Positions 56 through 59,873 of a DNA stretch of 64,000 nt are shown piece by piece; the stretch's first letter is position 1; each line of letters opens with the position of its first letter. The stretch is taken from NCBI GenBank assembly GCA_030159075.1, contig BROG01000139.1, forward strand, positions 876,501 through 940,500, given 5' to 3'. Below the pieces are notes generated by a model. It was not told where the DNA came from and searched no databases. It saw nothing but the letters and a program-made list of their open reading frames with translations. The stretch is from Atrina japonica. Lineage: Eukaryota > Mollusca > Bivalvia > Pterioida > Pinnidae. Both the position numbers and the translations under genes were made by a program.

Positions 56-558
56 GCTACAGTGAGTCAACTTCTACAAGAAAAAAACCTGTGTATATAT
101 TGCCCAAACAAAGTAACACCACCTTAGAATTGCAACCATCTTTTCTGGTAACTGTTAGTGACCCTGTTGGACTGGTACCCGTTAGCAACCCCGTCGGAAT
201 GGTACCCATTATCGATCCTGTAGGACTGGTAAATGTTGGCAACCCTGTTGGACAGACTGAAAGTCAAGGACAGAGGTTAATTCAGGCAGCACCATCTCCG
301 GAGTCTCGTGGACTATGTTTTCACCACATGTACCCAAGTGAAACATTTTTAAAATCACAGACTAGCACCGCACCCAGTCAGGATGGTAACCTGTGCTGCG
401 AATTCTGTGGGAAAGGATTTAAATCTGTGAATGGTTATGTTATACACAAAGAAAGATACCACTCAGATAAAAAGCTATACCCAACGTGTGAAAAATGTGG
501 GAAAACATTTTCATGTACTAACTCACTGGTGAGACACCAGATGAAGCATTGCAAGTAA
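56..558 (+). CDS. Exon Z1: alternative terminal exon, two C2H2 zinc fingers, possibly truncated
   Basis: Seen: a T-rich tract ends in AG at 54-55; the exon then opens with two bases completing a codon and stays open to TAA at 556-558 (about 167 residues). The first ATG is internal, so a spliced start fits better than an initiator. The N-terminal half is a linker with four 9-residue repeats (nt 157-252, core NPVG/DPVG). The C-terminal half has two C2H2 fingers (C-x2-C-x12-H-x4-H, then C-x2-C-x12-H-x3-H). Sister exons Z2 and Z4-Z6 end in a C2HC finger; here such a finger lies in frame just after the stop (559-642). Z1 is therefore a shortened variant, a decaying exon, a readthrough case or a sequence error. 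Likely role by family: nuclear, sequence-specific DNA binding as the C-terminus of a larger protein whose 5' exons are outside the window. Confidence 0.8.
157..252 (+). repeat. In-frame 27-bp repeat in exon Z1
   Basis: Four tandem 27-nt units encode 9-residue repeats with core DPVGLVP / NPVGMVP / DPVGLVN / NPVGQ. The repeat keeps the reading frame, so it is a low-complexity linker before the fingers rather than a break. Confidence 0.8.
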
Positions 559-645
559 AGGATGTTCACATGTCTAATTTGTAGCATGCTTTTCAACTTT
601 AAAAGTACATTGAAGGCACATAGATGTGAACCAAGCTATGATTAA
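559..645 (+). pseudogene. Out-of-ORF third zinc finger of Z1 (after the stop)
   Basis: Directly after the Z1 stop the same frame stays open for 28 codons to TAA at 643-645. It encodes a finger-like segment, C-x2-C-x12-H-x-C (Cys at 571, 580 and 625, His at 619), the same C2HC layout that closes Z2, Z4, Z5 and Z6. One stop codon at 556-558 separates it from the rest. It is either lost coding sequence, a readthrough extension, or an error in the sequence. Confidence 0.7.
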
Positions 646-1088
646 ATACAGACAAGTATAGTGAAATCTAGTTATAAGTTACCCTTAAAGACAGATGGAA
701 TGACCCATGCTATTGATGTTAGGAAGAGTTCGCTGTTTTCAGGGGTGGATGATGCAATAGCTAAAGCTCTCTTTTTTAGAAAATGTGGGCATCTTGCATG
801 CCTTTCTTCATCATACAGGAAAGGTTCAAGATGAACTTAGGATTTCTTATGATTGAATGTAACACTTGGAAACACATCCAAATCCTGAGATACCATTGAA
901 TTGAATGACATACAGCAAAATGTACATCACAGGTACCTACCTATAAAGGGCATTCAAACATTCCCTTTTGTTAACTTATTTTTATTTTGAATGAATATTC
1001 ATTTATAAAGGTCACCTGTCTATAATGGCTACTCTTACCTGCCCCTTGGGTGGCCTTTGTAGACAAGTTTGACTGTACAGTTACATTT

Positions 1089-1154
1089 AATAAACTATGT
1101 TATTTAGGAGCCCATCACATCAGAAAATGGATGGATTCCTTATTTTGAAATAAA
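1089..1154 (+). terminator. Possible polyadenylation signals for Z1
   Basis: Two AATAAA hexamers at 1089-1094 and 1149-1154, roughly 530-600 nt after the Z1 stop. In AT-rich DNA such hexamers occur by chance, so support is weak without 3'-end reads. Confidence 0.3.
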
Positions 1155-1845
1155 GTATGTTTGTATACCTGTTTGATTATATGTAACAAATCATCCTTGT
1201 TTACAGGTTTATCCTTTCAAAAGATGAATGTGTTAAGTATGAGTTTTGTGTAAAAGTTTCATTTCTGTGCAATGTAGCCTCCCAAATCTGATCCCCCCCT
1301 GAAAAAAAAAACAAAAAACCCAAAACAAAAAAACAATCACTTTCTGATACACATCATGGTTACAAAGTCCAGATTTTTCTCTTGTATTCATATAAAAATT
1401 AAATTCTGAATACTGATTCTGACATAGGAGACATAAACAGTAGCTTTGAGGTTCGGAACCTTACAATAACAGGTCAGTTTTTGGAAGTAGCACTTTACAT
1501 AGGATCAGAGTAAGGTATAACTGCTGATGATATAGATTGTAATTTGTGTTCCTTTGTGACATGTGCAGTCCAATATTATAAAAAACCACAAGGCGTTTCT
1601 AGGGTTAGTAACAAAGTTTATTTATGACCTTGTGTGGACCTTGGGGTTGGAGGGAGAGGGGTTTTGTAGATGGTCTGGGGTGGGAGGAGACAGGGGTTTT
1701 GCACATAGTCTGGGGATCCTGGGGTCAGGTTTTTTTGTAGATAGTTTAAGGATTTCACTGACCAAGTCACCGAAGATAAACTTTTACAGATGTGTGCTTT
1801 CATTAAATCTATTTTTCAGTACAGTAACAGAATTCAGGGTTAACA

Positions 1846-2478
1846 GGTGTACATCAAATATGTTTGGTTTTGTGTTGTTGTTGATGTTGATTTCTATCCC
1901 AGTCATATGGTATTACCAACCAGGATTTTTAATGTTTTGTTTTTTCCCATGGGGCCGGAGAGTGGATGAAGAAATAAATCTGTTTTACAATCGAGTGGAC
2001 CCCGCTATTACGATCAACCTAACTGACTGACACAATAGTCTGATCTGCAGGGGTGGTCGCTTAAGTGAGGGCCTAGACTTAATAAATACAGTGAAACCTC
2101 AATATCAAAACCACCTAACTGACTGACTTGACTCAAAGTGGTCCAATTTGTGAGGGTCTGGACTTTAATCAAATGACTAAATGTTAGTGCTCTTAAATGT
2201 GAGGTGATCTGCTAAGCTAGATGGTTGTAAGGTGAGGTTTCACTGTATAAAGTAAAAATTATAATTTATATGTGAGTGTGAGTATTTACTGGATTTTGTG
2301 ACACCCGATGCAGGGTGAAAAATGTATCGGAACTTCCCCAGCCTGGATACTTATCAAGTTAAAAGTCAATATAACATTATACAACCGGATGGTCAACACA
2401 CATAATCTTACACAAACAGACAGAGACACACACTTACATACTGAAAACTTGAATATGATTTGCCTTTGACTTAGAATA
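1846..2478. repeat. Duplicated spacer segment, copy 1 (with 4464-4893)
   Basis: Shares long stretches with 4464-4893: a segment with TTTTTCCCATGGGG, a chain of GACCACCTAACTGACTG-type sequence, and an AC-rich tail ending near TTTGAATATGATTTG. It sits just before exon Z2; the second copy has no intact exon after it. Confidence 0.75.
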
Positions 2479-2575
2479 TTTGTACATTGCTGTTAGGTTA
2501 TTGGTTTAATTTTCTGTGTTTAAAATAAATAATTCGACATCTTTTATTTGACTCCAAACTCTTTCTTCTTCTCAG

Positions 2576-3165
2576 GTCAAACAACGGAATTATCACCTGT
2601 ACATGCTAACATGGATACTTCGCATTTGAATCCTCTGTTAGAAGCATCTGGCCAGTATCACCTTAGCAAAGGTCATGCAGCCTGTCATGTGATCCATGAC
2701 CCCATAGTTGTTGATAACAATCCTGTAAACACGAGTAATTTTCCAGATGAGAAAAATGTTTACACTGACCGAAAACCATCCTCTGTTGTTTCACGTGACA
2801 TCTTAAAGTGTTTACAGTGCAATGAATCTTTTTATCGCGTTGACTTGTTGAGTCATATTGAAAAAAGGCATTCAGATTCGGGCCTCGACAAATTAAAGTG
2901 TACCTTCTGCAGGAAAAACTTTCGCTCAAAATGGGGATTAAATGTACATAATCAAATGTACCATTCAAGTGAGAAAAACTTACCGAAATGTAAGATTTGT
3001 GCAAAAACATTCCCAAGTGCAACACATCTTGCCACGCATTTAATTTCCCATTCCAGTCAGAGAAATTTCCAATGTAGCATATGCCAGAAAGCCTACAAGT
3101 TGAAACATCATTTAAAGGCTCATTCGTGCCGACCGGGAGTATCATCTTTATCTAACACTATGTAG
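2576..3165 (+). CDS. Exon Z2: alternative terminal exon, four zinc fingers
   Basis: Seen: a strong pyrimidine tract with acceptor AG at 2574-2575; the exon begins with two bases completing a codon (Gly if the upstream base is G) and is open to TAG at 3163-3165, about 196 residues. The first ~80 residues are a linker without recognised domains. Four fingers follow: C-x2-C-x12-H-x4-H twice, C-x2-C-x12-H-x3-H, and a final C2HC finger ending H-x-C. This order matches the last four fingers of Z4-Z6, so these exons share ancestry. Oddity: the stop codon falls within a tRNA-like SINE fragment (3161-3251), so the C-terminal tail may have been cut or set by an insertion. Likely role by family: DNA-binding C-terminus of one isoform. 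No initiator context is seen. Confidence 0.87.
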
Positions 3166-3251
3166 CTCAGTGGCCAATTGGTTAGAACATTGTGCTTTTA
3201 ACCATAAGGTCTCTGAGGATTTGAGTTCCTCTGGAACCTAAGCTGGGCGTG
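3161..3251 (+). repeat. tRNA-like SINE fragment at the Z2 stop
   Basis: TAGCTCAGTGGCC resembles a tRNA A box and GGATTTGAGTTCC a decayed B box; then comes the phrase GGAACCTAAGCTG, also seen in the SINE at 50342. Stems do not pair well, so it is not a working tRNA. It stops where similarity to the Z4 upstream flank begins. Confidence 0.6.
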
Positions 3252-3294
3252 GTACCTAAATCATGATATTCTGTATCATTTTGATGGACTCTGT

Positions 3295-3782
3295 GCAGAC
3301 AGAATGAAGAAATTGCTAGTTATGCGAAAATGTTAGGAGTTGAAAATGTGCTTGACTCTTACAGTTAAGCCAAGATAGTAGATCTACCTAGATTACAGTG
3401 TGTTAAGTGTTGGAGAACTTTAAGAGTGGTGTCTGGCAAGGTCATACAGTTGTAGCGTTTGTTTTACATAGTTCACTGATAAAGCCGCAGAAATCAGCAT
3501 GTGATTGATTGCCACCATAACACTGGTGATGTCATACAGTGTGAAGATTGTGGGAAAGCATTTAAATCCAGACCGGGCTACATCACACATAGTCAGGAGG
3601 AGCTGCCGAAATGTACTGAATGTGGAAAGTGTTTTCCTTCAGTCAGTCGACTTGCCATCCACCAACGTGTTCATTCTGTCGATAAATATTATATCTGTTT
3701 AAAGTGTAACAGATCGTATAAACATAAACACAACCTTAAGACTCATAAATGTCATGCTGGAGAAGAGAACTTGAAACAGTAA
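3295..3782 (+). pseudogene. psiZ3: decayed copy of exon Z4/Z5
   Basis: Seen: nearly identical to Z4 (7687-8219) with several lesions. The acceptor CTCTAG is changed to CTCTGT, so the usual splice AG is gone. In the ancestral frame TAA appears at 3366-3368. A deletion of about 30 nt removes most of finger 1, one base is lost in the GCCGCC region of finger 2, and about 13 nt are missing near the end of finger 3. The 3' half, with the last two fingers, stays open to TAA at 3780-3782. At sites where Z4 and Z5 differ (AAATCCAGACCGGGC) it matches Z4. Remaining ORFs here are remnants rather than genes. It is a dead third copy of the Z4/Z5 exon. Confidence 0.85.
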
Positions 3783-3910
3783 AACTTGATATAGATTTAA
3801 ATAATAGCAAAATAATACAAATGATGTCTAGGAGCAATTAGTCAATGTGACAACATAGCTAATTTTTCTGGTAAATGTATCTTAATGTTGTCCAATTGTC
3901 TGATTCACCT

Positions 3911-4158
3911 AAGATAGCGGGGCGGAGTAACCTTTTGATTATCATAGGGTTATACTACTCACTCTTTGGATATGACACCATGCACAGGAAAAAATGTTTC
4001 ATTACTCACTGTATATTTTCTTATGTATGTTAGGAATGATTACTTTATAGTCAGTCTAGTTTTAATTCTATGCTTTATTACCTAAAATATAAACTCGTCC
4101 AGGTCAAAAAAGGGTTCACAAGACTCCGCCCAGCCAGGTTATGTGGATTTTAGTATAC
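3911..4158. mobile_element. GC-edged miniature foldback element, copy 1
   Basis: One edge carries GCGGGGCGGAGTAACC and the other a decayed inverted counterpart (GTTCACAAGACTCCGCCC). Related copies lie at 15030-15302 and 38867-39117. Non-coding, about 250 bp; superfamily not assigned. Confidence 0.65.
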
Positions 4159-4893: not shown

Positions 4894-4904
4894 TAAAAAA
4901 GAGC

Positions 4905-6645: not shown

Positions 6646-6733
6646 TTAATTCATCAACCCCTGAAAAACAGTGGACCCATCTGTAAATCAATGACTTAGA
6701 CCAGTCCAAATGTGTCTTAAGGGGTGAATGTTT
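6646..6733. mobile_element. TTAA micro-foldback element (unit A, first)
   Basis: About 90 bp, starting TTAATTCATCAACCCCTG and ending AGGGGTGAATG. One copy of the family described in the findings; its counterpart in unit B is at 8695-8782. Confidence 0.65.
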
Positions 6734-7094
6734 ACAAACATTACAGGTGTTCTTTCACAGATTTCCATGTGTAGGGTTAAAATTTCATCTTCCACCCCAA
6801 CCTCACCCCATATAAACTTCTGATTTTGGTATTCACTTGAGGAGTTGAGAACAAAACTACATTGTCCTAAGCAATATAGACAACTGTTGGATCAGATAAT
6901 TTCATGGGGTTAAAATTGCAATGTTTTACAAATAAAAATTGTTTTTCATTACATTTCTTTGAAGTAAGCAAACTTGTTGTAAAGGAACCCATTACTATTA
7001 CTGGGTTTAATTTATGTAAAATTGTTATGGTTTAAATGTTGATATATGAATGCGAAATTAAAACCACTATAATTTTTTTCTGATTCTACCGTAA

Positions 7095-7185
7095 TTAATT
7101 CATTCACCCTTAAAGACACATTTAGCCTGGTCCAAGTCATTGATTTACAGAAGAGTCTATTGTTTTTCAGGGGTTGGCAAATTAA
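7095..7185. mobile_element. TTAA micro-foldback element (unit A, second, inverted)
   Basis: 91 bp bounded by TTAA at both ends, with TTCATTCACCC on the left and CAGGGGTTGG on the right. Counterpart in unit B at 9088-9165. Confidence 0.7.
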
Positions 7186-7686
7186 AAAAGCCATTTTTGA
7201 ACATATTACTGCATGTGATTTTATACATGGACTCTAAGACAATACAGGTCTACCGAGATAAAGTGGAACATTCGATCAGAAACCAAAACAATACTGTCTA
7301 TTTTCCAAAAGTAGGGGTGTACAGGTATACAATTTGCCTTGCACTGTTTCCATGCATTACTATAGCTCTGATGCTTTGTGCCACCTTTGTAGCCTTACAC
7401 CCTTGTTATGATCTAATGTAGACTCACTGTGTTTGTAAACATGTGCCAATGTAGCTGTGTAGGCCAGTACATAGCCTTTTTAACCCATGTGTCTGTATTT
7501 GAATGGGACAAAACAGTAACACATGATACTCTGTCAGAACATTAAAACATTCAATGGTAGAACAAAAAATGTGATAAAATGAATTTCTGTGGAAAAAACA
7601 CTCTTTAACATTTATGATAATTTCATTCGATACGGAGGATGAGTTTCCTAAATCATAGTATTCTTTATCATTTTGATTGACTCTAG

Positions 7687-8219
7687 GCAGACAGAATGAA
7701 GAAATTGCTAGTTATGGTGAAATGTTAGGAGTTGAGAACATGCTTGACTCCCACAGTGAAGCCAGGGTTGTAGATCTACCTAGATTACAGTGTGTTAAGT
7801 GTTGGAGAACTTTCTATGATGGGAAGGAGTTAGAGCAACATAAAAAGTGGTGTCTGGCAAGGCCATACAGTTGTAGCGTCTGTTTTACTCCATTCACAGA
7901 TAAAGCCGCCAGAAATCAGCATGTGATCGATTGCCACCATAACACTGGTGATGTCATACAGTGTGAAGATTGTGGGAAAGCATTTAAATCCAGACCGGGC
8001 TACATGACACACAGACGGGTTTATCATAGTCAGGAGGAGCTGCCGAAATGTACTGAATGTGGAAAGTGTTTTCCTTCAGTCAGTCGACTTGCCATCCACC
8101 AACGTGTTCATTCTGTCGATAAATATTATATCTGTTTAAAGTGTAACAGATCGTATAAACATAAACACAACCTTAAGACTCATAAATGTCATGCTGGAGA
8201 AGAGAACTTGAAACAGTAA
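7687..8219 (+). CDS. Exon Z4: alternative terminal exon, five zinc fingers
   Basis: Seen: acceptor TTTTGATTGACTCTAG (AG at 7685-7686), same entry phase as the other exons, open to TAA at 8217-8219; 177 residues counting the junction codon. A ~34-residue acidic linker is followed by five fingers at about residues 36-56 (C2HC), 63-84, 93-114, 122-142 and 150-168 (C2HC, ending H-x-C). Finger 5 is rich in Lys/His. The in-frame TTG upstream lies before the acceptor and is not a start. Near-identical sister exon Z5 is 1.95 kb downstream and a dead copy (psiZ3) lies upstream. Likely role by family: nuclear DNA-binding C-terminus of one isoform. The Z4-Z5 differences include the contact positions of finger 3, so the two may recognise different sites. 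Confidence 0.88.
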
Positions 8220-9633: not shown

Positions 9634-10166
9634 GCAGACAGAATGAAGAAATTGCTAGTTATGGTGAAATGTTAGGAGTTGAGAACATGCATGACTCCCA
9701 CAGTGAAGCCAGAGAAGTAGAACTACCTAGATTACAGTGTGTTAAGTGTTGGAGAACCTTCTATGATGGGAAGGAGTTAGAGCAACATAAAGAGTTGTGT
9801 CGGGCAAGGCCATACAGATGTAGCATCTGTTTTACACCATTCACAGATAAAGCCGCCAGAAATCAGCATGTGATCGATTGCCACCATCTCTATGGTGATG
9901 TCATACAGTGTGAAGATTGTGGGAAAGCATTTAAAACCAAATCGGGCTACATGACACACAGACGGGTCTATCACAGTCAGGAGGAGCTGCCGAAATGTAC
10001 TGAATGTGGAAAGGGTTTTCCATCAGTCAGTCGACTTGCCATCCACCAACGTGTTCATTCTGTCAATAAACATTATATTTGTTTAAAGTGTAACAGGTCG
10101 TATAAACATAAACACAACCTTAAGACTCACAATTGTCATGCTGGAGAAGAGAACTTGAAACTGTAA
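9634..10166 (+). CDS. Exon Z5: alternative terminal exon, five zinc fingers (tandem copy of Z4)
   Basis: Seen: acceptor CTCTAG with AG at 9632-9633, the same entry phase, open to TAA at 10164-10166; 177 residues with the junction codon and the same five-finger layout as Z4. About 18 residues differ from Z4. All the expected zinc ligands remain. Differences include the finger 1 tail (KKWC to KELC), the finger 1-2 linker, and positions -1, 1 and 2 of the finger 3 helix (SRP to TKS). The reading frame survives with no lesions, unlike psiZ3, which suggests selection. Likely role by family: DNA-binding C-terminus of a separate isoform. An AATAAA lies at 10982-10987. Confidence 0.88.
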
Positions 10167-12180: not shown

Positions 12181-12692
12181 GCTTTCAATGTACAAAATTG
12201 ACATCGAGAGGTGGCCGTATCTATACACCTCAGACCATCACTACAGAGTCAAGGAAACAGAATCGCATTCAGTGTGATCACTGTCTACGAACATTCAACA
12301 ATCACGATGATTACAGGGTCCACAGACAAACTACTCACCAAAGTAACGAGTATTTTTGTAATATATGCAACGTCATGTTTACTGACAAAAATGCCAGAAA
12401 TAAACACATTACAGAGAACCACATCCAGGAGGGTGAAGTCGCTGAGCAATGTGAGGATTGTGGGAAGGCTTTCAAGTCGAGGCAGGGATATCTGTCACAC
12501 AGAAAGATATATCACAGTCAGGAACAACTACCTGCCTGTGTCAAGTGTGGCAAAAGTTTTCCTACACGTAGTGCTTTAGCCATACATGATCGTGTGCATT
12601 CTGAAGAGAAAGACTACTGTTGCTTGTTGTGTAATAAGTCGTATAAACACAAATTTAACTTGAAACGTCACAAATGTCAAATTGACCAATAA
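12181..12692 (+). CDS. Exon Z6: alternative terminal exon, five zinc fingers
   Basis: Seen: acceptor TTCTTTTTAATATTACAG (AG at 12179-12180), entry phase as in the other exons, open to TAA at 12690-12692; about 170 residues. A ~30-residue basic linker is followed by five fingers in the same order as Z4/Z5: C-x2-C-x12-H-x4-H, a second beginning C-x2-C-x12-H, a third with GKAFKSRQGY, a fourth with GKSFPTRSAL, and a terminal C2HC finger with YKHKFNLK. It is clearly related to Z4/Z5 but well diverged, so it is an older duplicate still under constraint. Likely role by family: nuclear DNA-binding C-terminus. It is the last C2H2 exon; downstream exons carry other domains. Confidence 0.88.
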
Positions 12693-17786: not shown

Positions 17787-18007
17787 AGGGAGAGATGGAT
17801 CCAAACTTATGGTATCACTATGATGCTTCCCCTAGACAGAAACAAGGAGAACTGACTTTGGAGGAGAGGCGTCGGAGAAGAAATGAAAGGCAAAAACGTT
17901 ACAGGCAGAGATTGAAGAAGGACCCATCCAGACGACTGCTATATGAAAAAACTCTTGCATACCATCGCACATACAATAGATTTCGAAAGGAGGAACAGAA
18001 GGAAGAG
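17787..18007 (+). CDS. Exon B1: basic exon of the array, no zinc ligands
   Basis: Seen: acceptor CTGCTTCTGCTGTTCAG (AG at 17785-17786) in the same entry phase as the finger exons. About 74 residues, with a short N-terminus (WYHYD) and a long helical, strongly basic stretch: five Arg in a row, then RQKRYRQRLKKDP and RTYNRFRKEEQ. The ORF continues to TAG at 18035-18037, but AAGAG/GTGAAT at 18007/18008 is a good donor and would leave in phase 0. Such ERQ+RYRERLK-DP basic stretches recur in uncharacterised invertebrate proteins as far as I can recall; I do not assign a named domain. Possible role: DNA contact or nuclear localisation. Either a terminal exon ending at 18037 or an internal exon joined to B2 or B3. 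Confidence 0.65.
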
Positions 18008-18087
18008 GTGAATCTGGTTTCTATATTGATAACTTAGTATAGGTTTTTGTTACTTAAATATTCCAAGTGAGCAGTGGACTCAAGGGC

Positions 18088-21761: not shown

Positions 21762-22207
21762 AACCACAGAGACCAGACCAAGAGGAGTTTTCTCAGTTGG
21801 AACACTCATTCCCTAAACCTTCTTGGTATAATTATAGCTATGCACAAGATGTTACTCCAGTAGAGGCCAAAGCAGCCATGACTGGAGTTTATTCTTCTCC
21901 TGTAGTTACGACTGACAGTAAGAGAAAGATTGGGCCACATGGTATAGGTCCTCAGAAATATCCAGGAGCAATGATATCATTTGGTCATCATCATCTCATT
22001 CCAAATTTTGGTGGACTAAAGAGAGTTTGTGCTCAGTGCAAGCTGGATGGCAGCAAATTTGCTTGTGGCATGTTCCGTAGATCATACTACAAGTGTGACA
22101 CATGTAATATTTCTCTTTGTCGACCCAAAGTCAGGAACTGCTTTGAACAATGGCATTTGAATCTGGGAAATGCAGCAGATGCTGTACACGTAGATAAGCA
22201 AACTTAG
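21762..22207 (+). CDS. Exon P1: alternative terminal exon, piggyBac-type C-terminal zinc domain
   Basis: Seen: acceptor TTACTTTTCTTTACAG (AG at 21760-21761), shared entry phase, open to TAG at 22205-22207; about 148 residues. A ~75-residue linker precedes a domain opening HHHLIP, then C-x2-C-x18-C-x2-C-x4-C-x6-C-F-x3-H with SYYKC before the second Cys pair. The CF..(W/Y)H ending and overall layout resemble the C-terminal zinc domain of piggyBac transposases, although the 18-residue spacing is longer than the roughly 12 I recall for typical members. No transposase core is nearby. Known role of that domain: binding transposon-end DNA. Inference: a reused DNA- or protein-binding module. A second in-phase acceptor 21 nt upstream (TTTTAG, AG at 21739-21740) could add 7 residues. 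Confidence 0.85.
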
Positions 22208-24556: not shown

Positions 24557-25008
24557 GAAAACAAAGACATATGAAAATAAAATCATCCCCTTCATTTCCT
24601 GCTAAGACTCAGCAACAGAACCGTACCTCTGTTAAAAGTAGCATGAAGGGTATGGAAGAGGATATCTCAAACGAACCAAGTATAATTTCCAAATTGTTGT
24701 TAGGTGCTGATTCTGAAGCTTTTGGGTCAACGTCAGTTCATGTTAATACCCAGGATGACCCTGAAGCTAGAATCATAGAAGTAATCGACAGTGCCGGAAG
24801 TCACTTTCACCATCTGGTGCCAATAGTGCCAGACTTGTCTAGAAGGAAGGTGTGTCAGTTCTGTAAAATGAGTGGTGACAAGTACGTCTGTGGGGATACG
24901 CGGCGATCATACTACATGTGCCTAGAATGCAGTGTCCCGCTTTGTTTACCAACAATGAAACCTTGTTTTGTAAAATTTCATCAATATGCGCAGGATCAAA
25001 TGCACTGA
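24557..25008 (+). CDS. Exon P2: alternative terminal exon, piggyBac-type C-terminal zinc domain
   Basis: Seen: acceptor GTGAATATTTTTGCAG (AG at 24555-24556), shared phase, first full codons K-Q-R, open to TGA at 25006-25008; about 150 residues. The ~90-residue linker is Ser/Glu-rich. The C-terminal domain opens HHLVPI and has C-x2-C-x18-C-x2-C-x4-C-x6-C-F-x3-H, with an additional Cys (CG) inside the 18-residue loop as in P1, P3, P5 and P6. The junction start G-K-Q-R matches G-E-Q-R in P4-P6, which supports common ancestry of whole exons, not only of the domain. Inferred role: interchangeable nucleic-acid or protein-binding C-terminus of the same gene. No piggyBac catalytic sequence nearby. 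Confidence 0.87.
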
Positions 25009-25330: not shown

Positions 25331-25546
25331 TGTGTATATTGGAAATGATATAAATTTCCCAGCCAAAATGATACAGATTTCCTGGTCAAATAATTTTATT
25401 GCCATTATAACCTTGTTGTTTTGAAAGCTCTGTTTAATTGAAGGGAAAATCATTCCCTTTCGATTTCAGTATATCTGGGTTCGACGGTATATAAAATTGC
25501 AAAAAGCTGAAAGGGGGATTATATTTACACTAGAGGAAGTGTTCAT

Positions 25547-25637
25547 TTAACTCATTCACCCCTACAGACACATTTGGACTGGTCAGAGTCATTGACTTAC
25601 AGAATAGTCCATCGTTTTTCAAGGGTTGACAAGTTAA
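25547..25637. mobile_element. TTAA micro-foldback element (inverted)
   Basis: 91 bp bounded by TTAA at both ends: TTAACTCATTCACCCCTA to AAGGGTTGACAAGTTAA. Confidence 0.7.
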
Positions 25638-26143
25638 GATTAGAGTTGTTTTAAGATCAAAGTGGCAAGAAATGTTTGAAGTTAGAGGTGGTGAGAAATT
25701 GTTATAACAGTGATGATTGTCTACACTTGACTGTATGTATATCTGGATGTGTTTATCTTGGAAGTCTTGAGATGGAAGTTGTTTTATTAGTAACTAACAG
25801 ATGTAAAGCTAGAAATGGTACCTTTGCTAAACAATCAGTAAATGGCTCAAAAACTTCTTTTTAGTAAAACTTTTTTTCTGATAGATAGGGTATGGCTTAG
25901 CAGAATAAAGTACAGTGTTGTCCTGGATTTGTGGTCTTGCATATTTCGGGGTGAATATTTGGTGTCTGAAGTTTCTATTGAATACAAAATACAGATCAGT
26001 GATAAAAATCTCTTTCACATATTTCCATTCAATTAACCGACCATGTACTAAAAGAAACTGTCAGAGAAGGAAGTTATATTCAATTCATTATGACAGTAGA
26101 ATAGTAAGAATAAATTGATTTGCAGGATTACATATTTTTGCAG

Positions 26144-26586
26144 GAAATCGTGGAACTGCGAGTGCTGCCTGTATTAACTCTAATGTGAATTTTCCCCCAT
26201 TAGAACAACTTATCTCCCATCACTATAAACCATTTCAACCTGAAAGCCATTTGGATCAGCATCCAGAATTGGTATCCCATATTGATTTTTCAAGGAAAAA
26301 TGCTTCAAATTGCAATGACCAGATGCATGTGGTTAAAGTTAGCTGTCCAGCGACATCCAAAGACTCTGGAGTGAGTTTGCACCACTTGGTGCCACTGACA
26401 TTTGAGTTTGTCAAAACTAAAATCTGCAAGTTTTGTCTGATTAGCGGTGACAGGTTCGATTGCGGGAAAACTCGGCGATCATATTATAAGTGTCAGGAGT
26501 GTGATGTACCATTGTGTAAACCAAATAAGCGAAATTGTTTTATCAATTACCACAAGTTCCTAGAACAAAAGGAACAAAACATCTAA
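26144..26586 (+). CDS. Exon P3: alternative terminal exon, piggyBac-type C-terminal zinc domain
   Basis: Seen: acceptor ACATATTTTTGCAG (AG at 26142-26143), shared phase, first codons N-R-G, open to TAA at 26584-26586; about 147 residues. A His- and Asn-rich linker of ~80 residues precedes a domain opening HHLVPL with C-x2-C-x18-C-x2-C-x4-C-x6-C-F-x3-H; the 18-residue loop holds the extra Cys and the RRSYYKC motif. A second AG 18 nt upstream (GATTTGCAG, 26124-26125) is in the same phase and would add six residues. The exon is clearly related to P2 and P6 but diverged in the linker. Inferred role as for its sisters; the ligand (DNA, RNA or protein) cannot be read from sequence. Confidence 0.87.
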
Positions 26587-28899: not shown

Positions 28900-29810
28900 G
28901 CACTTCAGCTGCTAATACATACATCCTTTGTAAGATTAAAACCCACACACTTAGCTCTTAATACACACCTTGTTTGTTAGTTTAAAACCCATACATTTTA
29001 GGTCTCAGTACATATCACCTTTGTAAGTTTAAAACACCTACACATTAGCTGCTGACACATAACTCCTTTGGAAGTTTAAAACCCATACACTAGCTGACAA
29101 TATATACATCCTTTGTATGTTTAAAACCCATACACTAGCTGACAATATATACATCCTTTGTATGTTTAAAACCCATACACTAGCTGACATTATATACATC
29201 CTTTGTATGTTTAAAACCCATACACTAGCTGACATTATATACATCCTTTGTATGTTTAAAACCCATACACTAGCTGACAATATATACATCCTTTGTATGT
29301 TTAAAACCCATACACTAGCTGACAATATATACATCCTTTGTATGTTTAAAACCCATACACTAGCTGACATTATATACATCCTTTGTATGTTTAAAACCCA
29401 TACACTAGCTGACATTATATACATCCTTTGTATGTTTAAAACCCATACACTAGCTGACATTATATACATCCTTTGTATGTTTAAAACCCATACACTAGCT
29501 TACAATATATACATCCTTTGTATGTTTAAAACCCATACACTAGCTGACATTATATACATCCTTTGTATGTTTAAAACCCATACACTAGCTGACATTATAT
29601 ACATCCTTTGTATGTTTAAAACCCATACACTAGCTGACAATATATACATCCTTTGTATGTTTAAAAACCATAAAGTACAAAAACTACATATCACCATTGT
29701 AAGTTTAAAACATATACACATTAACTGCCGATACATAGCTCTTTTGTTAGTTTAAAACATATACACATTAACTGCCGATACATAGCTCTTTTGTTTTAAA
29801 ACCCATACAT
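28900..29810. repeat. 45-bp minisatellite (core 29080-29665)
   Basis: Unit about 45 bp: TATGTTTAAAACCCATACAC, then TAGCTGACAATATATACATC, then CTTTG. About 13 nearly identical core copies with two alternating variants (GACAAT or GACATT), flanked by degenerate copies. As 45 is divisible by 3 and the unit lacks stops in one frame per strand, long ORFs appear on both strands; this is a by-product of the repeat. Confidence 0.95.
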
Positions 29811-30215
29811 TATAGGTGCTAAAACATACTACATGTAGTACCTCCTTTGTAGATTTAAAACCGGTAAACATTAGCTGCCAGTTCACACTCTGTAAGTTTA
29901 AAACCCATACATCTTAGGTGCTAAAACATACTACATGTATGTAGTACCTCCTTTGTAGATTTAAAATCCATAAACATTAGCTGCCAGTGCATACTCTGTA
30001 AGTTTAAAACCCATACATCTTAGGTGCTAAAACATACTACATGTATGTAGTACCTCCTTTGTAGATTTAAAATCCATAAACATTAGCTGCCAGTTCATAC
30101 TCTGTAAGTTTAAAACCCATACATCTTTGGTGCTAAAACATACTACATGTATGTAGTACCTCCTTTGTAGATTTAAAACCCGTAAACATTAGCTGCAAAT
30201 GCATACCCTTTTGTA
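29810..30215. repeat. 106-bp higher-order repeat, about four copies
   Basis: Unit start TGTAAGTTTAAAACCCATAC at 29891, 29997 and 30103, with a palindromic ACATACTACATGTATGTAG segment in each. It grows out of the 45-bp array. Confidence 0.9.
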
Positions 30216-33714: not shown

Positions 33715-34380
33715 AGTTTTAGAATTTTCGGGTGATAATGGTAAATTCGGTTTTAATATAGTCAAATGTTTACGGCATATATGGTATTTATTTCTCAGAA
33801 TTATTGGTTTCCATAAACTTGTGTCTATTTTACTTGAATCTTTTAATTTACTTAGAAGGTTTTTTTTATTGACTGGTATTAGGAAATGTCATTTCCAGAT
33901 TTGATTGGATATTTAAAAGAAACGCATCATAGTTTTCATCGAATTATGTATTTTTCAAATTCTAAATTATAATTCTAGGAGAACAAAGAACATCGGACAT
34001 TGTACATGAACACTCGGGTGATCCCAACTCTGACCAATATAAACGACATATTTATGACGAATCGGCTCACAGCAGCACCATGTGGAATGCTTATGAAGTT
34101 TTCAACAGGCCTACAAATAAATCTCAGTTCGAGGTTGCAATCTATGATGGAACAAAATGTATAGTGCATCATTTGGTACCAATCTCTAATGACTTTTCAC
34201 AGCGGAAAGTTTGTCTGTATTGCAAAATGAGAGGCATTGAGTTTTACAGTGGTAAAGCAAGAAAGTCGTACTACAAGTGCTCTGAATGTGACTTAGCCTT
34301 ATGTAACCCAGTGGCTTGTAACTGTTTCTATGACTACCATACTTATTTACAGCAGAAAATGAATTGAATACCAACAACAA
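33715..34380. repeat. Tandem duplication unit containing P4
   Basis: Matches about 34645-35330 (offset 929 bp), including the intron segment with GTCAAATGTTTACGGCA upstream and the whole exon. Confidence 0.85.
33979..34367 (+). CDS. Exon P4: alternative terminal exon, piggyBac-type zinc domain (tandem copy of P5)
   Basis: Seen: acceptor AAATTATAATTCTAG (AG at 33977-33978), shared phase, first codons E-Q-R, open to TGA at 34365-34367; about 129 residues. A ~70-residue linker matches P5 closely; the domain opens HHLVPI with C-x2-C-x18-C-x2-C-x4-C-x6-C-F-x3-H. Oddities: the extra loop Cys present in P1-P3, P5 and P6 is Ser here (YSG for DCG), and an additional Cys appears before the last pair (VACNC for VARNC). 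The main inferred zinc ligands remain. The code upstream of the first ATG (34080) is open and matches P5, so the exon starts at the acceptor, not at that ATG. Inferred role as for its sisters. Confidence 0.85.
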
Positions 34381-34907: not shown

Positions 34908-35330
34908 GAGAACAAAGATCATCGGACATTGTACTTGAACACTCGGGTGATCCCAACTCTGACCAATATAAACGACATATTTATGACGAATCGGCTCAGA
35001 GCAGCGCCACCTGGAATGTTTACGACATTTTCAACAAGCCTTCAAACAAATCTCAGTTCGAGGTTGCAATCTATGATGGAACAAAAAGTATAGTGCATCA
35101 TTTGATACCGATCGCTAATGATTTTTCAAAACGGAAAGTTTGTTTGTGTTGCAAAATGAGAGGCATTAAGTTTGATTGCGGGAAAACAAGGAAATCGTAC
35201 TACAAGTGCTCCGAATGTGATTTGGCCTTGTGTAAACCGGTGGCTCGTAACTGTTTCTATGACTACCACAGTTATTTACAGCAGAAAATTAACGGCATAC
35301 CAACATCAATTAATCAATGATTACCTCATG
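34645..35330. repeat. Tandem duplication unit containing P5
   Basis: Second copy of the 33715-34380 unit. Confidence 0.85.
34908..35320 (+). CDS. Exon P5: alternative terminal exon, piggyBac-type zinc domain (tandem copy of P4)
   Basis: Seen: acceptor AAATTATAATTCTAG (AG at 34906-34907), shared phase, first codons E-Q-R, open across the whole exon to TGA at 35318-35320; about 137 residues. The linker is nearly the same as in P4; there is no ATG until the loop (ATGAGAGGC), so it cannot be an independent short gene with a normal start, which favours a spliced exon. The domain opens HHLIPI and keeps C-x2-C-x18-C-x2-C-x4-C-x6-C-F-x3-H with the extra loop Cys. It extends eight residues beyond P4. 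Inferred role: interchangeable binding module. Confidence 0.87.
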
Positions 35331-40409: not shown

Positions 40410-40834
40410 GAGAACAGAGAGCTCATGAAACAGTGCAGATGTATGGTAGCGTAAGTACCCCACAGTCTGCTGGATATAGTTATGAACCACCAGGAAGCAC
40501 CTCCTGGCCCAGACAGTCCGCTAAACCCCACATGAGTATTGGCTCAAAGATGAGTAATGCATATTATAACGATATTCCTCCTGTAACGGAAATACGCTGT
40601 GTGGTGAAAACAGATGGTGCAGGAAGTAAAGTTTGGCACCACCTGGTTCCAATAGCAGAAAATTTGTTAAAAAAGAAAGTGTGCCAATTTTGTAAAATGA
40701 GCGGTGACAAGTTCGAATGTGGTGTCACAAGAAAGTCGTACTACAAGTGCTACGAATGTGATGTGGCTCTTTGTAAGCCAACAATGCGAGCCTGTTTCAA
40801 CAATTATCACCAGTACCTGGAGGAACATGGTTGA
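40410..40834 (+). CDS. Exon P6: alternative terminal exon, piggyBac-type C-terminal zinc domain
   Basis: Seen: acceptor GCAAATTATTTTACAG (AG at 40408-40409), shared phase, first codons E-Q-R, open to TGA at 40832-40834; about 141 residues. The linker is Ser/Tyr/Pro-rich and continues into an I-x-C-V-V-K-T stretch resembling the pre-domain segment of P3. The domain opens HHLVPI with C-x2-C-x18-C-x2-C-x4-C-x6-C-F-x3-H, including the extra loop Cys and KSYYKC. It is closest to P2, P3 and P5. An AATAAA at 41177-41182 (343 nt after the stop) could end the transcript. Inferred role as for its sisters. Confidence 0.88.
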
Positions 40835-44259: not shown

Positions 44260-44759
44260 AGCAGGAAATGAGATACCAGTATGTTTTACCTGGACATGGT
44301 GCATTGGGTCAACAGGAACAATCGTCATCACAGTATGCAATACCTGGATACAAGGAACAGGGCCAGCAACCAGACTCGGGAATACAACTTTCAGCATCTG
44401 GCCTCGAAATGCTAGAAACACAGCAAAGATTTGATCATCGACAAGATTTATTCCCTAAAGATCAGAATGTGTTTAACCTGGCGAAACATCAGTCCAACTC
44501 TCAAGCTATTCACCGATTAGTTCATATGCCACGGAACCGAACATGTGCATTTTGTGGTTTAACTGGCAATTTGACAAGAGCAGGGTTTGCGAAAAAGTCG
44601 TACTATAAGTGCGCAACTTGCAGAGTTCATCTGTGTCGCGGTGATTCACAGTGTTTTGAGAAGTATCACAAATTTATGGAGGGCATTGACGTCAATGTCT
44701 TGACGAGAACAGAACTGAAGAACAGATTGAAAAATTTCTTAGAAAAACAAAACAAATAA
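44260..44759 (+). CDS. Exon P7: alternative terminal exon, piggyBac-type zinc domain with C-terminal tail
   Basis: Seen: acceptor TATCGTGTTCTCTTAG (AG at 44258-44259), shared phase, open to TAA at 44757-44759; about 166 residues, the longest P exon. The linker is very Gln-rich. The domain opens HRLVHM with C-x2-C-x18-C-x2-C-x4-C-x5-C-F-x3-H; it keeps KSYYKC but lacks the extra loop Cys of P1-P3, P5 and P6. A ~30-residue Lys/Leu/Asn-rich tail follows (ending NFLEKQNK), absent from the other P exons. A second AG 5 nt downstream would shift the frame, so the first is preferred. It links the HHLVPI group (P1-P6) with the more diverged P8-P10. Confidence 0.85.
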
Positions 44760-46993: not shown

Positions 46994-47406
46994 AACCTTT
47001 CCCGCATACTCAGGCCTCAAAATACACGCGGAGAGGTCATGTCCCAAGTGAAATTATGGTAGGACAGTTAGGCGAAGAAAAGGAGCACAAACTAATTAGG
47101 CTGGATCCATATAAATTAAAGCGATGTTTTTACTGCCAGATCATGAAAGTACGAACGAGGAGTGGTTATAGAGTCAAAACGTCCAGTCAGTGTCTCGCCT
47201 GCGAGGTTCCCCTCTGTAGCGAAACCACGAGTGACTGTTTTCAGCGGTATCACGCTCTTGTGAAGAACATGTCCGCCAGTCAGAGCCAGGCCTTATTAGC
47301 GGAAGTCAAATCACCTCAGTGGGTTCGTTCTACCAGTGCTGACACAAGTAGCCATGGCGATACAGAGACTCCTTCAAATTTTTACGCTTATTATCACGGT
47401 AGCTGA
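46994..47406 (+). CDS. Exon P8: alternative terminal exon, diverged piggyBac-type zinc domain
   Basis: Seen: acceptor TTCTTGTGTTTTCAG (AG at 46992-46993), shared phase, open to TGA at 47404-47406; about 137 residues. The linker is short (~35 residues), so the domain lies centrally: HKLIRL, then C-x2-C-x18-C-x2-C-x4-C-x6-C-F-x3-H with KVRTRSGY in the loop, a pattern repeated in P9 (KVRTKNGW) and P10 (RVKTKSGW). The SYYKC motif is changed to SSQC. A ~50-residue Ser-rich tail follows. P8-P10 form a subgroup closer to typical piggyBac zinc domains in the loop motif. An AATAAA at 47852-47857 lies 446 nt after the stop. Confidence 0.84.
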
Positions 47407-52639: not shown

Positions 52640-53019
52640 ATTCTGATCTGTCAAAGCCCATTCTGTCATATGGAATGGGAACCGAATACAGACAAGAATT
52701 GGGCCAACCGCAAGTAGTAACGGAAGTAATGGCACATCGTCATGTCCAGTTCAGCTCCGCCTCTGGTCAACAGTCCCATTGTTTGATACAATCCAGAAAG
52801 AAACACAACTGTCACATGTGTAACATATCAAAAGTCAGAACCAAAAACGGATGGCCCGTATCCAGCCGATATATATGTGAACAGTGCAATATCGGATTCT
52901 GTCGGGACAAGGGATGTTTTGAAATCTTTCACCAGAATTATCTTCAGTTCTCAAGGCGATATTATTCTAGTGATAATAAATCAGATCAATACAATAAAAC
53001 AGTGTATTCCATAGATTAA
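52640..53019 (+). CDS. Exon P9: alternative terminal exon, diverged piggyBac-type zinc domain
   Basis: Seen: acceptor TTTGTTTGCCTTTCAG (AG at 52638-52639), shared phase, open to TAA at 53017-53019; about 126 residues. The ~45-residue linker precedes HCLIQS and C-x2-C-x18-C-x2-C-x4-C-x4-C-F-x3-H, with the KVRTKNGW loop and FH instead of YH at the end. The spacing between the last two Cys is the shortest of the set. A ~30-residue Ser/Asp/Tyr-rich tail follows. Oddity: the usual first residue after His is Cys here. An AATAAA is found at 53212-53217 (193 nt after the stop). Inferred role as for its sisters. Confidence 0.83.
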
Positions 53020-55989: not shown

Positions 55990-56225
55990 GGAGCCACCGT
56001 TACTGAGTGGTTAGAGCATTGCATATCGAGCCTCAAACTCTTAGTCTACTGGAAGCTAAGCTGATTTAGTAAGAAGTTTCGCCAGTTTATCTGCGGAAGG
56101 CCAGTTGTCTTTTCCCAGGTACATTGTAACGGGGTTCTATCCTCTACACCATTTAGAAAAATCGCCGCCTCCATAAGACCAAAATTGTTGAGTGTGCTGG
56201 GGAACACCTTTCAAAGAAAAGAAAA
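55990..56225 (+). mobile_element. tRNA-derived SINE, family 1
   Basis: TTACTGAGTGGTTAGAGC head, GCCAGTTTATCTGCGGAAGG, ACATTGTAACGGGGTTC and TTGTTGAGTGTGCTGG. Confidence 0.7.
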
Positions 56226-56649
56226 ACCAAAAGACATGTTTTGCTTCAATTATGTCTAAACCTATAAAAGGAAATATACCTAATAAACGTAAAGATTTAT
56301 TCTGAAATATTCCCATCGTTTGCCATCATCAGAAAATTGTTCTGACTGTATTTTCAGAATCAAAAGCTTTTTGTCTTTGAAAGTTGTTCATCTGTAAAGT
56401 TTTGTACAAAAATATGAATAGATTTATCCCTAATGTTGTATGTGTCGTTTATGCCATTTTGTATGTTTTATTGTATATACATATTGTGTAATTGTTTTTA
56501 TTTATCAATAAAGAAATTTTATCCATAGTCCTCCATTTGTTTCGTATGCAAGCGTTTTTGAAATTTTATCCATAGTCCTCCATTTATTTCATATGCAAGT
56601 GTTTTTTGAAGTTTTGTATTCTATATAAACAGATACGTTAATGCTTGGA

Positions 56650-57300
56650 CCAAACCTCCCCAAAACCCATAAGTACAACACTTAGTAGATGGTGTAGTGG
56701 ATGAAACCCACCAGAACACTGAGCAGATCAGGTGGTGTTTATATAAAATACACCCCCACACACACCACTAAACAGATCGGATAGTGCTTAGTTCAAACTT
56801 CCCCCGTGCACATATGGAGCTAAGGTAGTGCATGGATCAAACCCCCACACACCACTAAGCAGATAAGGTAATGCTTATATAAAAACCTCCCATGGAGCTA
56901 AGGTAGTTCATGGATAAAACCTTCCCACGCCACTAAGCAAATCAGAATGTGATTAGTTCAAACCTCCAACACCACTAAGGAGACAACGTAGTGCAAAGTT
57001 CAAATCTCTTACGCCATAAAGCAGAGCTTGGTTCAAACCGCCACACTAAGCAGATAAAGCAGAGCTTGGTTCAAACCACCACACTAAGCAGAGCTTGGTT
57101 CAAACCGCCACACTAGGCAGAGAAAGCAGAGCTTGGATCAAACCGCCACACTAAGCAGAGCTTGGTTCAAACCACCACACTAAGCAGAGCTTGGTTCAAA
57201 CCGCCACACTAGGCAGAGAAAGCAGAGCTTGGATCAAACCGCCACACTAAGCAGAGAAAGCAGAGCTTGGTTCAAACCACCACACTAAGCAGATAAAGTA
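56650..57300. repeat. About 30-bp repeat field with AGCAGAGCTTGG unit
   Basis: Clean units over 57010-57295 (AAGCAGAGCTTGGTTCAAAC, then CGCCACACT), degenerate over 56650-57000. Resembles local expansion at one end. Confidence 0.85.
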
Positions 57301-57384
57301 TAATGAAGTACTTAACAATGGAAATTAGAAACTCCAAGTCCATTAGAATACGACAAATTAGATATAACAACTGTCTCAACACGA

Positions 57385-57500
57385 AGAACTATTGTGAATC
57401 CCATACGGGGATGGGACCAGGTGTCCGGAGGGAGTAAGCGTCCCCTATTAGCATGCCACACCCATCGCAAATGTCCCATGGTCACCTCTCGTGTTAGATG
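57385..57500. repeat. Dispersed repeat (related to 42850-43010)
   Basis: ACGGGGATGGGACCAGGTG, then GGAGTAAGCGTCCCCTAT, TTAGCATGCCACACCC. Confidence 0.65.
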
Positions 57501-57949
57501 AAAAGGTCATGTTTGATTCACTTTTGGCATGGGGCTGTATCATATTCTATAATTTCAGCAGAACAATAGTAACTGAAATTCGGAAGGTCTAAGGACGCAT
57601 AGTTTTCCGTATCTTTAAAAGCATTTTACACACTTTGAGAAATGTAATTTGTGTAGTACGCAAGATGAATTCTCAGGTGTTTATTTATTTTTCTTTTATC
57701 TGATTTTCAACAATTTAGTTTCTGTCAAATAACTTTTAAATGAACTTTGGTATTTTGCTTTATATAAAGTAATTTGTGGATTGAGTCTTAATAATGCTAA
57801 TATTTCAGACATATTTGCAAGATAGAATTTGTTGAGTCGTCTGTACCGATTTTGACGAGGAATTTTATTTCTTCACTTGTTTTTATTTTAATTTAACTCT
57901 GGAACTCATAGCTGTGTTACCGGTCTGTCAAGGGTATTTGATTCTCCAT

Positions 57950-58040
57950 GGCACCTGATCCCACCTCTTAATCTTCTGGAGGTCCATGTTTTTCTAATAT
58001 TCACAAGCTTTGTATTCTGTCTCTTGGACCACCTGATGGT
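57950..58040. repeat. Dispersed repeat fragment (related to 19140-19300)
   Basis: CACCTGATCCCACCTCT, GGAGGTCCATGTTT and CTTGGACCACCTGATGG. Confidence 0.6.
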
Positions 58041-58065
58041 TAATACTTTTATCGCATACACACAC

Positions 58066-58069
<4 letters not shown>

Positions 58070-58114
<45 letters not shown>
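58070..58114. repeat. (GA)n microsatellite
   Basis: About 22 GA units. Confidence 0.95.
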
Positions 58115-58118
<4 letters not shown>

Positions 58119-58393
58119 TGACCACAGGAGTTATGGTTCTTTGATGGGCAAAGAATTCAACTAGTTTTATGTGAAGAGCAGTTAAATGGCAAATTTATAT
58201 CTTTTTTGTTTCTTAGTTTATTGTGTTCTATTTTGATATTATTGAAATTGTGTAATAGGAAATATTTGCTATGTTATATAAGATTTCACTCTTCCATATC
58301 TTAAAAACATCAACTCTTCTGTACTTCAAAGGACATATTTATAGACCAGTCCAACGATGTGTTATATTAGGGTGATGGATTCAATACTCTTAC

Positions 58394-58858
58394 AGTAAAG
58401 GGGCATTAGTTGTGTGTGTTTGTTGTTTTGGTTTGTTTTTTTTCGTTTTTTTTTTTTTTATTATTATTTTGTTGGGTTTTTTTTTTTGGGGGGGGTGACT
58501 TTTTGTGCAAAAAGATATGTACAATAACAGAAAAAGCGATATAACCGTGCCTAAAAATTCTTAAGTTCCTATATATTTATAAACATGCCTAAAAATTCTG
58601 AAGTTCATGTATATTTTCTGGAAAGTGCTTCAGAAACCCAGTTTGGCAGTTTTTCACTTGCAATTGATTAATTCAACATACTATTTGTAAATGCACATCA
58701 CACTGAGCCTGACCTTATTTTCACAAAAATATAGGAATATAGGATTTTGTTCATGCCTGTGTATAGCTCTTATTTGTTACTGTACAAGTACAAGTAGTAA
58801 AAATTAAAATAATCGAAATATTCTTTTTTGGTAAGCCTAGCTGATGTCCCCTTTAAAA
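58394..58858. mobile_element. TTAA-type foldback, copy 4, with T/G insertion
   Basis: AAAGGGGCATTAGTTGTG on the left, GATGTCCCCTTTAA on the right. A T/G-rich stretch (58417-58498) and a partly duplicated segment enlarge it. Confidence 0.7.
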
Positions 58859-59586
58859 TGCATGTACTTAACAGTCTTAACAGTCTCACAATGATGACGT
58901 CTGTTGCGAAACTTAACCATGTATGACAAATCAACACTGTAATTCTATCAGACAAGTTGTATAGCTATTTGCATCACTACATTGGTGTTATTTTTGTGAT
59001 ACCTTTTCACTATTGAGTGGCGAGTACAGTTTTAGCATGTTCCTCTCAGTATTTTCCTGGTCAGTGATGTACCGTGTTACTTTTCTCTCTCTTGTTATGG
59101 TACTAGTAATGTTATAAACAAGTTATCACTTGTGCGGGAATTGAATGAAGAAGAAACTAATGAAAATGTAAGGCAATAAGAAGTAAAGAAATCTAACTAC
59201 TGTTGCATAAGTTTATCTATTTGTAAGCTTATTAATCAAATATTTTCCAGTTTGTAATATGCATTGCAAAGGCATTATATATATTTCAGTTATCTGTCAG
59301 AATTCAAGAACCTCTTTTTCTTCTGTTGATCCCTTGTGCAATTTCTGTTCATTTTCCAATTATTTCTTTATTTTTTTTTTTTTTGGTGCATTTTAATATG
59401 CATATTATTTATAAATCTGATAATTTGCAATATGGAGGCAGAAATGCATGGAAGCATGGCATTGCATTTTTTATTTGTTTTGAAATGTTGACTTACTACT
59501 AATAAATGTTTGTTGAAGAATTTATTTTCATGAAAGTTCAGGGAATTTCCAAAATAGACATTTGTATTTGCTCTGTTCCATTACAG

Positions 59587-59873
59587 ACTACAAACACGGT
59601 CAGGATTGGTTAAGAAATGCAGTGGGTATGTTGCCGCCGGTTCCGAGAAGCTTTTTGTCGTTTGATTCTGGCAAAGGTGAAAAAGACATTCCGCCATGTC
59701 ATAGGCTTGTCCAAGCTTCAAGGAAGAGGTGTACTGTTTGTTACGCAAGAAGAGTCAAAACAAAATCAGGATGGGACATATACACAAACTTTAAGTGTGA
59801 ATTCTGTGATGTGGCGCTGTGTAAACGCGAGGACAAGGAGTGCTTTCGATTCTACCATGATGCAAAACTTTGA
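59587..59873 (+). CDS. Exon P10: alternative terminal exon, diverged piggyBac-type zinc domain
   Basis: Seen: acceptor TTTGCTCTGTTCCATTACAG (AG at 59585-59586), shared phase, open to TGA at 59871-59873; about 95 residues, the shortest of the set. A ~42-residue linker precedes HRLVQA and C-x2-C-x18-C-x2-C-x4-C-x6-C-F-x3-H with RVKTKSGW in the loop; it ends four residues after the last His. The loop resembles P8 and P9. An AATAAA lies only 36 nt after the stop (59909-59914), the best-placed signal in the window. It is the last exon found in the array; if the gene model is right its acceptor is at least 59.5 kb from the shared donor. Confidence 0.84.

Follow-up and report, generated by a model that had tools for sequence, protein, structure and literature searches.

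Do coding islands that stand in a row on one strand of a bivalve genome, each with a splice acceptor and a stop codon of its own, belong to separate genes, or are they interchangeable last exons of a single gene? The question is raised by a window of 64,000 nucleotides from Atrina japonica (assembly GCA_030159075.1, contig BROG01000139.1, hereafter C139, positions 876501-940500), in which a sequence-only reading had recognized sixteen such islands and interpreted them as the swappable C-termini of one gene of a probable mollusc, the exons common to all of them being expected left of the window. A window coordinate plus 876500 gives the place on C139, and since the window runs from 1 to 64000, lower or higher coordinates refer to flanking DNA; neighbouring DNA was examined from -80 kb to +104 kb (184 kb), and genome-wide searches covered 832 Mb in 2,347 contigs. 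Our analysis indicates that the locus is very probably one bivalve gene with a constant BTB trunk and about two dozen mutually exclusive terminal exons (tails). The earlier observation is confirmed in part and its interpretation supported; the nearest relatives (Pinctada, Magallana and scallops) identify the mollusc as a bivalve.

The common exons lie where they had been predicted. The proposed search for a BTB or other shared N-terminal exon upstream of the window locates a trunk of three exons (-37043 to -24712) that spans 12 kb with its introns and encodes 575 residues, comprising a BTB domain (Pfam, 1.5e-10) and a flexible, serine-rich linker; in comparisons with bivalve proteins, identity is 89% for the BTB part (Pinctada imbricata) and 56% for the whole trunk. 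As had also been predicted, the shared donor is in phase 1 with G as its last base: the third trunk exon ends at -24712 with G before gtaggcc. A phase-1 G donor likewise ends exon 3 of the trunk on C578 and of the first trunk on C682, the two paralogous copies of this exon that were readable; for the second trunk on C682, no exon 3 match was found. Among the 60 of 78 matches shown, the best relatives of the trunk BTB domain in the PDB are ZBTB17, BCL6, NAC1 and BACH1, and even a loose form of FxLRWN, the TTK motif of the BTB N-terminus, is absent from the trunk itself and from the first 80 residues of all 181 proteins retrieved, some of which are partial.

Each of the sixteen islands, all on the + strand, is preceded by AG at the position that had been named, and each opens with two bases, after which whole codons run on to a single stop. 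The entry dinucleotides (GC, GT, AG, AA, GA, AT and AC) are as originally described; the number of tails in which an upstream T would create a stop, put at about ten, is nine of sixteen; and the statement that most islands lack a usable start codon does not hold, as an in-frame ATG stands between acceptor and domain in 14 of the 16. The single C-terminal domain attributed to each island resolves into C2H2 fingers in five tails, a cysteine-rich domain of piggyBac type in ten, and no recognized domain in one (17787).

Because the acceptors had been picked by the sequence-only reading, they were scored again independently: a simple pyrimidine-tract score of our own was given to every AG of each open frame, with the domains placed by means of the tails of other species. 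The top-scoring AG has a two-base entry in 14 of 18 tails of the array (binomial p = 1.4e-4), which comprise fifteen of the sixteen window tails (17787 was not scorable because it has no relative) and three tails downstream; the acceptor originally chosen is the top AG in 8 of the 15, and another AG scores higher in 7. Two-base entry is also best in four of the five alternative ends of a two-part module upstream of the window, and in 14 of 15 tails at paralogous trunk loci (C578, 5/5; C682, 2/3; C163, C845, C319 and C61 together, 7/7), compared with 22 of 75 (+) and 24 of 69 (-) control frames of at least 80 amino acids outside the gene, which is one third. These counts leave out a decayed tail copy at 3.3-3.8 kb, the core exon of the module (phase 0), the hits on C277, where no trunk was found (two-base entry in 2/3; scores -0.75 and 3.9), and the hits on C689, where the BTB is distant (not two-base).

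The same trunk is joined to different C-termini in other bivalves. It matches 410 proteins, of which the 120 listed come mainly from oysters (Magallana, Crassostrea, Ostrea, Saccostrea), scallops (Pecten, Argopecten, Ylistrum, Mizuhopecten) and Pinctada, and many of these orthologous trunks are numbered isoforms that differ in their C-termini. Among the isoforms of Pecten maximus LOC117336493, some end in zf-Tnp_2, some in BEN and some in neither domain, and C2H2 fingers are found in other Pecten isoforms whose trunk score is the same; scallops possess at least two such trunks, 63-66% identical. A junction motif occurs in 118 of the 120 listed proteins and is absent from 2, and the residue that follows it is Gly (68), Asp (26), Glu (19), Val (3) or Ala (2) in 118 of 118, although the isoforms are not independent; all five are encoded by GNN codons, as is to be expected of one common donor that ends in G. 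Sorted by simple patterns, the listed isoforms have C2H2 (70), cysteine-rich (23) or other (25) tails. Fifteen of the sixteen window tails, all except 17787, match isoform C-termini at E < 1e-3, and in the proteins P0002, P0014 and P0128 trunk and tail form one uninterrupted frame, on contigs of 2,324, 2,117 and 2,101 bp. Further tail types occur in three scallop isoforms (P0024, P0029 and P0042), whose tails are long or Lys/Arg-rich and whose Pfam match is only to BTB.

By sequence comparison, the ten cysteine-rich window tails are related to the C-terminal domain of piggyBac transposases. Pfam was run on ten of the sixteen window tails, among them five of the ten cysteine-rich ones, and PF13842 (zf-Tnp_2) reaches its curated cut-off in tails 59587 and 24557. 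Eight Cys/His residues (H76 C91 C94 C113 C116 C121 C128 H133), probably the ligands of two zinc ions, are invariant in all ten; the best PDB match to a profile of the ten tails is the piggyBat transposase (9c0f, E 1.9e-4; next best 0.019); and one modelled tail has block values of 78-94 in the predicted local distance difference test (pLDDT) over the domain, for which PF13842 leads one to expect a cross-brace zinc-finger fold. In a tree of 56 rows and 57 columns, built from 43 cysteine-rich tails and 13 long-frame copies of the A. japonica genome, the 43 tails and three long-frame copies (C471, C77 and C551) split from the ten other long-frame copies with a support of 99/99; C471 and C77, the two of the 13 that were scanned with Pfam, are piggyBac transposases. 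A single origin of the cysteine-rich tails is possible on this tree. Tail 59587 pairs with the Magallana gigas tail P0003 (100/99), tail 21762 falls into one group (93/97) with two oyster tails, P0002 and P0011, and one tail from the C845 locus of A. japonica, and tails 24557, 26144, 33979, 34908 and 40410 form a group of their own (99/90); judged by these placements, some members of the array appear to be old and others recent.

The array had been described as sixteen exons at 56-59873; it extends beyond those bounds in both directions (Table 1). Across the 184 kb, matches to isoform tails of other species form 25 clusters, the decayed copy among them, and every cluster is on the + strand. 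Six of the 25 lie upstream of the window, in a two-part module of a core and five alternative ends. The module has 53-62% identity with oyster isoforms, in which two ends of this kind occur. The short first exon of the module was placed by splice-site and frame constraints and resembles an oyster peptide by eye; tblastn with this exon added no support. Outside the window, the acceptor of the module end at -10849 is outscored by a same-phase AG at -10828, that of the end at -7559 by an AG at -7545 in a different phase, and that of the downstream tail at 70008 by a phase-0 AG eight bases further on. A core acceptor at -12344 was dropped in favour of -12351 (phase 0) after comparison with oyster isoforms. 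The module is BEN-like by eye and was tried as a BEN domain, which was rejected: it has no match to Pfam PF10523, and profile comparison with BEN-type isoform tails, with few sequences on either side, gives a probability of 0.2%. Altogether 24 C-termini are predicted at the locus, with 17787 counted, and the exon at -22608 to -22310 may be one additional tail. Two pairs of tails are duplicates, namely 7687 with 9634 (90% over 2 kb), with a ratio of nonsynonymous to synonymous substitution rates (dN/dS) of 0.50, and 33979 with 34908 (80% over 0.7 kb; dN/dS 0.26); values below 1 in both duplicate pairs suggest constraint, on few changes.

Table 1. Exons of the trunk, the module and the tail array of the C139 locus, in window coordinates
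Feature	Coordinates	Strand	Entry	Remarks
Trunk exon 1	-37043 to -36918			begins with ATG
Trunk exon 2	-27026 to -25717			BTB
Trunk exon 3	-25001 to -24712			phase 1 end
Possible additional tail	-22608 to -22310		GT	
Module first exon	-12927 to -12839			short
Module core exon	-12351 to -12105		phase 0	ends in phase 1 with G
Module end	-10849 to -10752	+	AT	
Module end	-7559 to -7456	+	TA	
Module end	-6925 to -6774	+	CA	
Module end	-6738 to -6623	+	GA	
Module end	-6394 to -6261	+	TG	
Tail, C2H2	56..558	+	GC	
Tail, C2H2	2576..3165	+	GT	
Decayed tail copy	3255..3802	+		copy of 7687 (87.7% over 593 columns); acceptor changed, frame broken; coordinates delimit the DNA match
Tail, C2H2	7687..8219	+	GC	
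Tail, C2H2	9634..10166	+	GC	recent duplicate of 7687, through which it is classed as C2H2
Tail, C2H2	12181..12692	+	GC	
Provisional tail	17787..18037	+	AG	Arg-rich; without relatives
Tail, cysteine-rich	21762..22207	+	AA	piggyBac-type domain
Tail, cysteine-rich	24557..25008	+	GA	
Tail, cysteine-rich	26144..26586	+	GA	
Tail, cysteine-rich	33979..34367	+	GA	
Tail, cysteine-rich	34908..35320	+	GA	duplicate of 33979
Tail, cysteine-rich	40410..40834	+	GA	
Tail, cysteine-rich	44260..44759	+	AG	
Tail, cysteine-rich	46994..47406	+	AA	
Tail, cysteine-rich	52640..53019	+	AT	
Tail, cysteine-rich	59587..59873	+	AC	
Tail, cysteine-rich	65222-65502	+	AT	downstream of window
Tail, cysteine-rich	70008-70285	+	AT	downstream of window
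Tail, cysteine-rich	73819-74159	+	AT	downstream of window

The A. japonica genome encodes a family of such trunks. Fourteen are at least 52% identical (one each on C139, C845, C61, C578, C1405, C319, C112 and C40, two on C682 and four on C163), and two further, remote trunk-like BTBs lie on C689. Genome-wide, zf-Tnp_2 is matched 79 times at an E of up to 0.01. Of these hits, 39 follow a trunk on the same strand at a distance of no more than 150 kb, 10 of the 14 trunks being followed in this way; the remaining 40 are elsewhere, and no hit is upstream of a nearby trunk or on the strand opposite to it. Four of 43 hits to DUF3504 follow two of the C163 trunks on the same strand, and this domain also occurs in one scallop isoform. 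On C163, at about 900-1200 kb, four BTB trunks stand within 200 kb and have 6, 1, 4 and 5 same-strand zf-Tnp_2 hits, two of the trunks being followed by DUF3504 frames as well; the region appears from its sequence to be a cluster of swappable-tail genes. On C425 (about 350174-435183, +), thirteen DUF3504 (Crypton-type) matches occupy about 85 kb of one strand, 11 of them in open frames of 296-352 amino acids, with two more further on in the opposite strand and no BTB hit listed on the contig; this may be a cluster of genes or a further tail array, served by another trunk.

How would one gene make use of so many ends? In each mRNA a single tail, or the two-part module with one of its five ends, would be spliced to the donor at -24712; since this donor contributes the first base of a codon, a G, and every tail the other two, the frame would be kept with any tail. 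Stop codon and 3' end would come with the chosen tail. Alternative cis-splicing combined with alternative polyadenylation is the likely mode, and the products would be nuclear regulators that pair via the common BTB domain and choose their targets by the tail. The tails would recognize DNA or chromatin, and the C2H2 tails should bind DNA; for the cysteine-rich tails, the piggyBac domain is described as binding transposon ends, and that of PiggyMac as binding histone H3 weakly, not DNA (PMC8086355). The tails of the same gene might instead be transcribed from promoters of their own and trans-spliced to the trunk, as in mod(mdg4) and partly in lola. Such an origin would agree with an anatomy equal to that of the insect loci and with the long distances, the last tail lying about 98 kb from the donor; the internal ATGs of 14 of the 16 tails tell nothing either way. 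However, all 25 clusters are on the + strand, and all 39 zf-Tnp_2 hits near trunks are on the strand of the trunk. Although a same-strand layout is compatible with trans-splicing too, cis-splicing needs nothing further and is the likelier mode because every tail lies on the trunk's strand; we regard trans-splicing as unlikely.

That each island is a short gene of its own, or that the islands are exon copies in decay next to an unrelated BTB gene, is highly improbable. The copy at 3.3-3.8 kb is clearly decayed, and with an in-frame ATG in 14 of 16 tails separate short proteins are still allowed by frame alone; but the common entry phase, the trunk-tail fusions with matching tails in other bivalves, the dN/dS below 1 of two duplicate pairs and the trunk-then-tails order at 10 of 14 trunks all argue for exons of one gene. 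Recent insertion could be suspected for the piggyBac-like tails, whose domain is the C-terminal domain of piggyBac transposases and has full-length relatives elsewhere in the genome. Yet only the C-terminal domain is recognized in these tails, each has an acceptor in the common phase, their oyster relatives serve as tails of the same trunk, and the tail array is one-stranded and follows the trunk, which makes it hardly credible that they are transposon remnants and not host exons.

Several points weigh against the one-gene interpretation or against the classification of its tails. The internal ATGs are one of them. The use of the junctions in A. japonica is predicted from genomic DNA; the contigs of P0002, P0014 and P0128 look as spliced mRNA would, with the molecule type unstated in the database; the NCBI isoform models are possibly extrapolated by the annotation pipeline, read support for each isoform being invisible; and short proteins containing trunk exon 3 were sought without result. 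In 4 of the 18 scored tails the best AG is in a different phase, the matches of the five C2H2 tails to isoforms are unspecific, none of the 120 listed isoforms is related to tail 17787 or to the exon at -22608, and poly(A) signals are too common at the locus to be informative. As for the piggyBac relationship, three of the five cysteine-rich tails scanned (21762, 40410 and 46994) fall just under the Pfam curated cut-off, with E of 1.4e-4 to 2.6e-4; Foldseek found no significant PDB match to the modelled tail; and just 3 of the 13 cysteine-rich tails of the locus are among the 79 zf-Tnp_2 hits at E 0.01, so that genome-wide tail counts are lower bounds.

The logic of the insect genes lola and mod(mdg4) had been proposed for this locus. 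Their architecture, one trunk donor with many phase-matched terminal exons, is present; kinship is not supported, the BTB domain being of a different type, and there is no sign of trans-splicing. The locus appears to work like lola and mod(mdg4), yet by its sequence is not of their family, because the TTK motif is missing and the best BTB relatives are ZBTB17, BCL6, NAC1 and BACH1. The FLYWCH domain found in mod(mdg4) is itself regarded as transposase-related. Drosophila lola is similar in having a BTB trunk and many alternative C-termini, with C2H2 fingers in 17 of 20 lola isoforms (PMC11426971); its BTB domain, however, is of the TTK type, a group described in the same source as arthropod-specific, whereas here FxLRWN is absent, ten of 16 tails are transposase-related and there are 14 trunk loci. 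Drosophila mod(mdg4) has at least 30 isoforms on one BTB trunk, with tails mostly of one zinc domain type, FLYWCH (PMC11426971), but its transcripts are trans-spliced, from acceptor exons that have promoters of their own and of which some lie on the opposite strand (PMC12692577), whereas the present array is on one strand and its domain is of piggyBac type.

Human CSB-PGBD3, in which a host N-terminus is alternatively spliced to piggyBac-derived C-terminal coding sequence (PMC3459987), is the nearest case that we found of a piggyBac part as an alternative C-terminus; unlike the bivalve array, in which a zinc domain only has been multiplied, it has one tail containing a whole transposase. In the KCTD1 and ZMYM DUF3504 genes, too, a transposon domain, derived from Crypton recombinase, is carried by a BTB or zinc-finger host gene (PMC3212892), but the DUF3504 of KCTD1 is N-terminal and single, and the C139 locus has no DUF3504 hit at E 0.01. 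The BTB proteins of PMC12062965 combine BTB with a transposon- or virus-derived zinc domain; as far as that account goes, they are almost all from Chordata and have the domain at the N-terminus, one per protein, and neither 'mollus' nor 'bivalve' occurs in its text. No account of the locus was found in listings of open-licence papers on such bivalve or mollusc genes or on domesticated piggyBac domains; PMC10620080 turned out to concern something else.

Other features of the neighbourhood include an exon with a Rubicon-homology domain at -48195 to -47950 (Pfam, 1.7e-14), which probably marks the previous gene. Minisatellites at 28907-29672 and 29739-30196, with a 45-bp unit (17 copies, 91% match) and an adjoining array of a 106-bp unit, yield long meaningless open frames on both strands. 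The peptide-like string PLKNNGLFCKSMTWTSPN and variants of it recur in stray frames at 7012-7233 (-), 25530-25793 (-) and -74809 to -74495 (+), which suggests an interspersed repeat. Rfam gave no match.

The isoforms are already present in NCBI annotation. The bivalve locus seemingly represents a design known from fruit-fly genes that has evolved separately here. One trunk with many tails is best known from two Drosophila loci with an arthropod TTK-type BTB; the present case differs by its occurrence in bivalves, on another BTB type, in 14 trunk copies and with many transposase-related tails. A speculative extension, to which we give a small chance, is that the trunk loci, at least 14 in number, form a growing library of tails fed by transposons, in which a piggyBac finger was captured once and multiplied into dozens of terminal exons, Crypton-type tails were added at sister loci, and transposon-derived detectors serve a system that silences transposons; with isoforms able to pair through the BTB domain of the trunk, recognition of the transposon ends or chromatin of related elements may persist in the tails. 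The birth of tails, in recent duplicates, and their death, in the decayed copy, can be read in one locus, where a transposon domain would have been turned into a combinatorial set of regulators. Occurrence of the design in bivalves on a different BTB type makes convergence testable, and the locus offers a probably cis-spliced comparison for the trans-spliced mod(mdg4).

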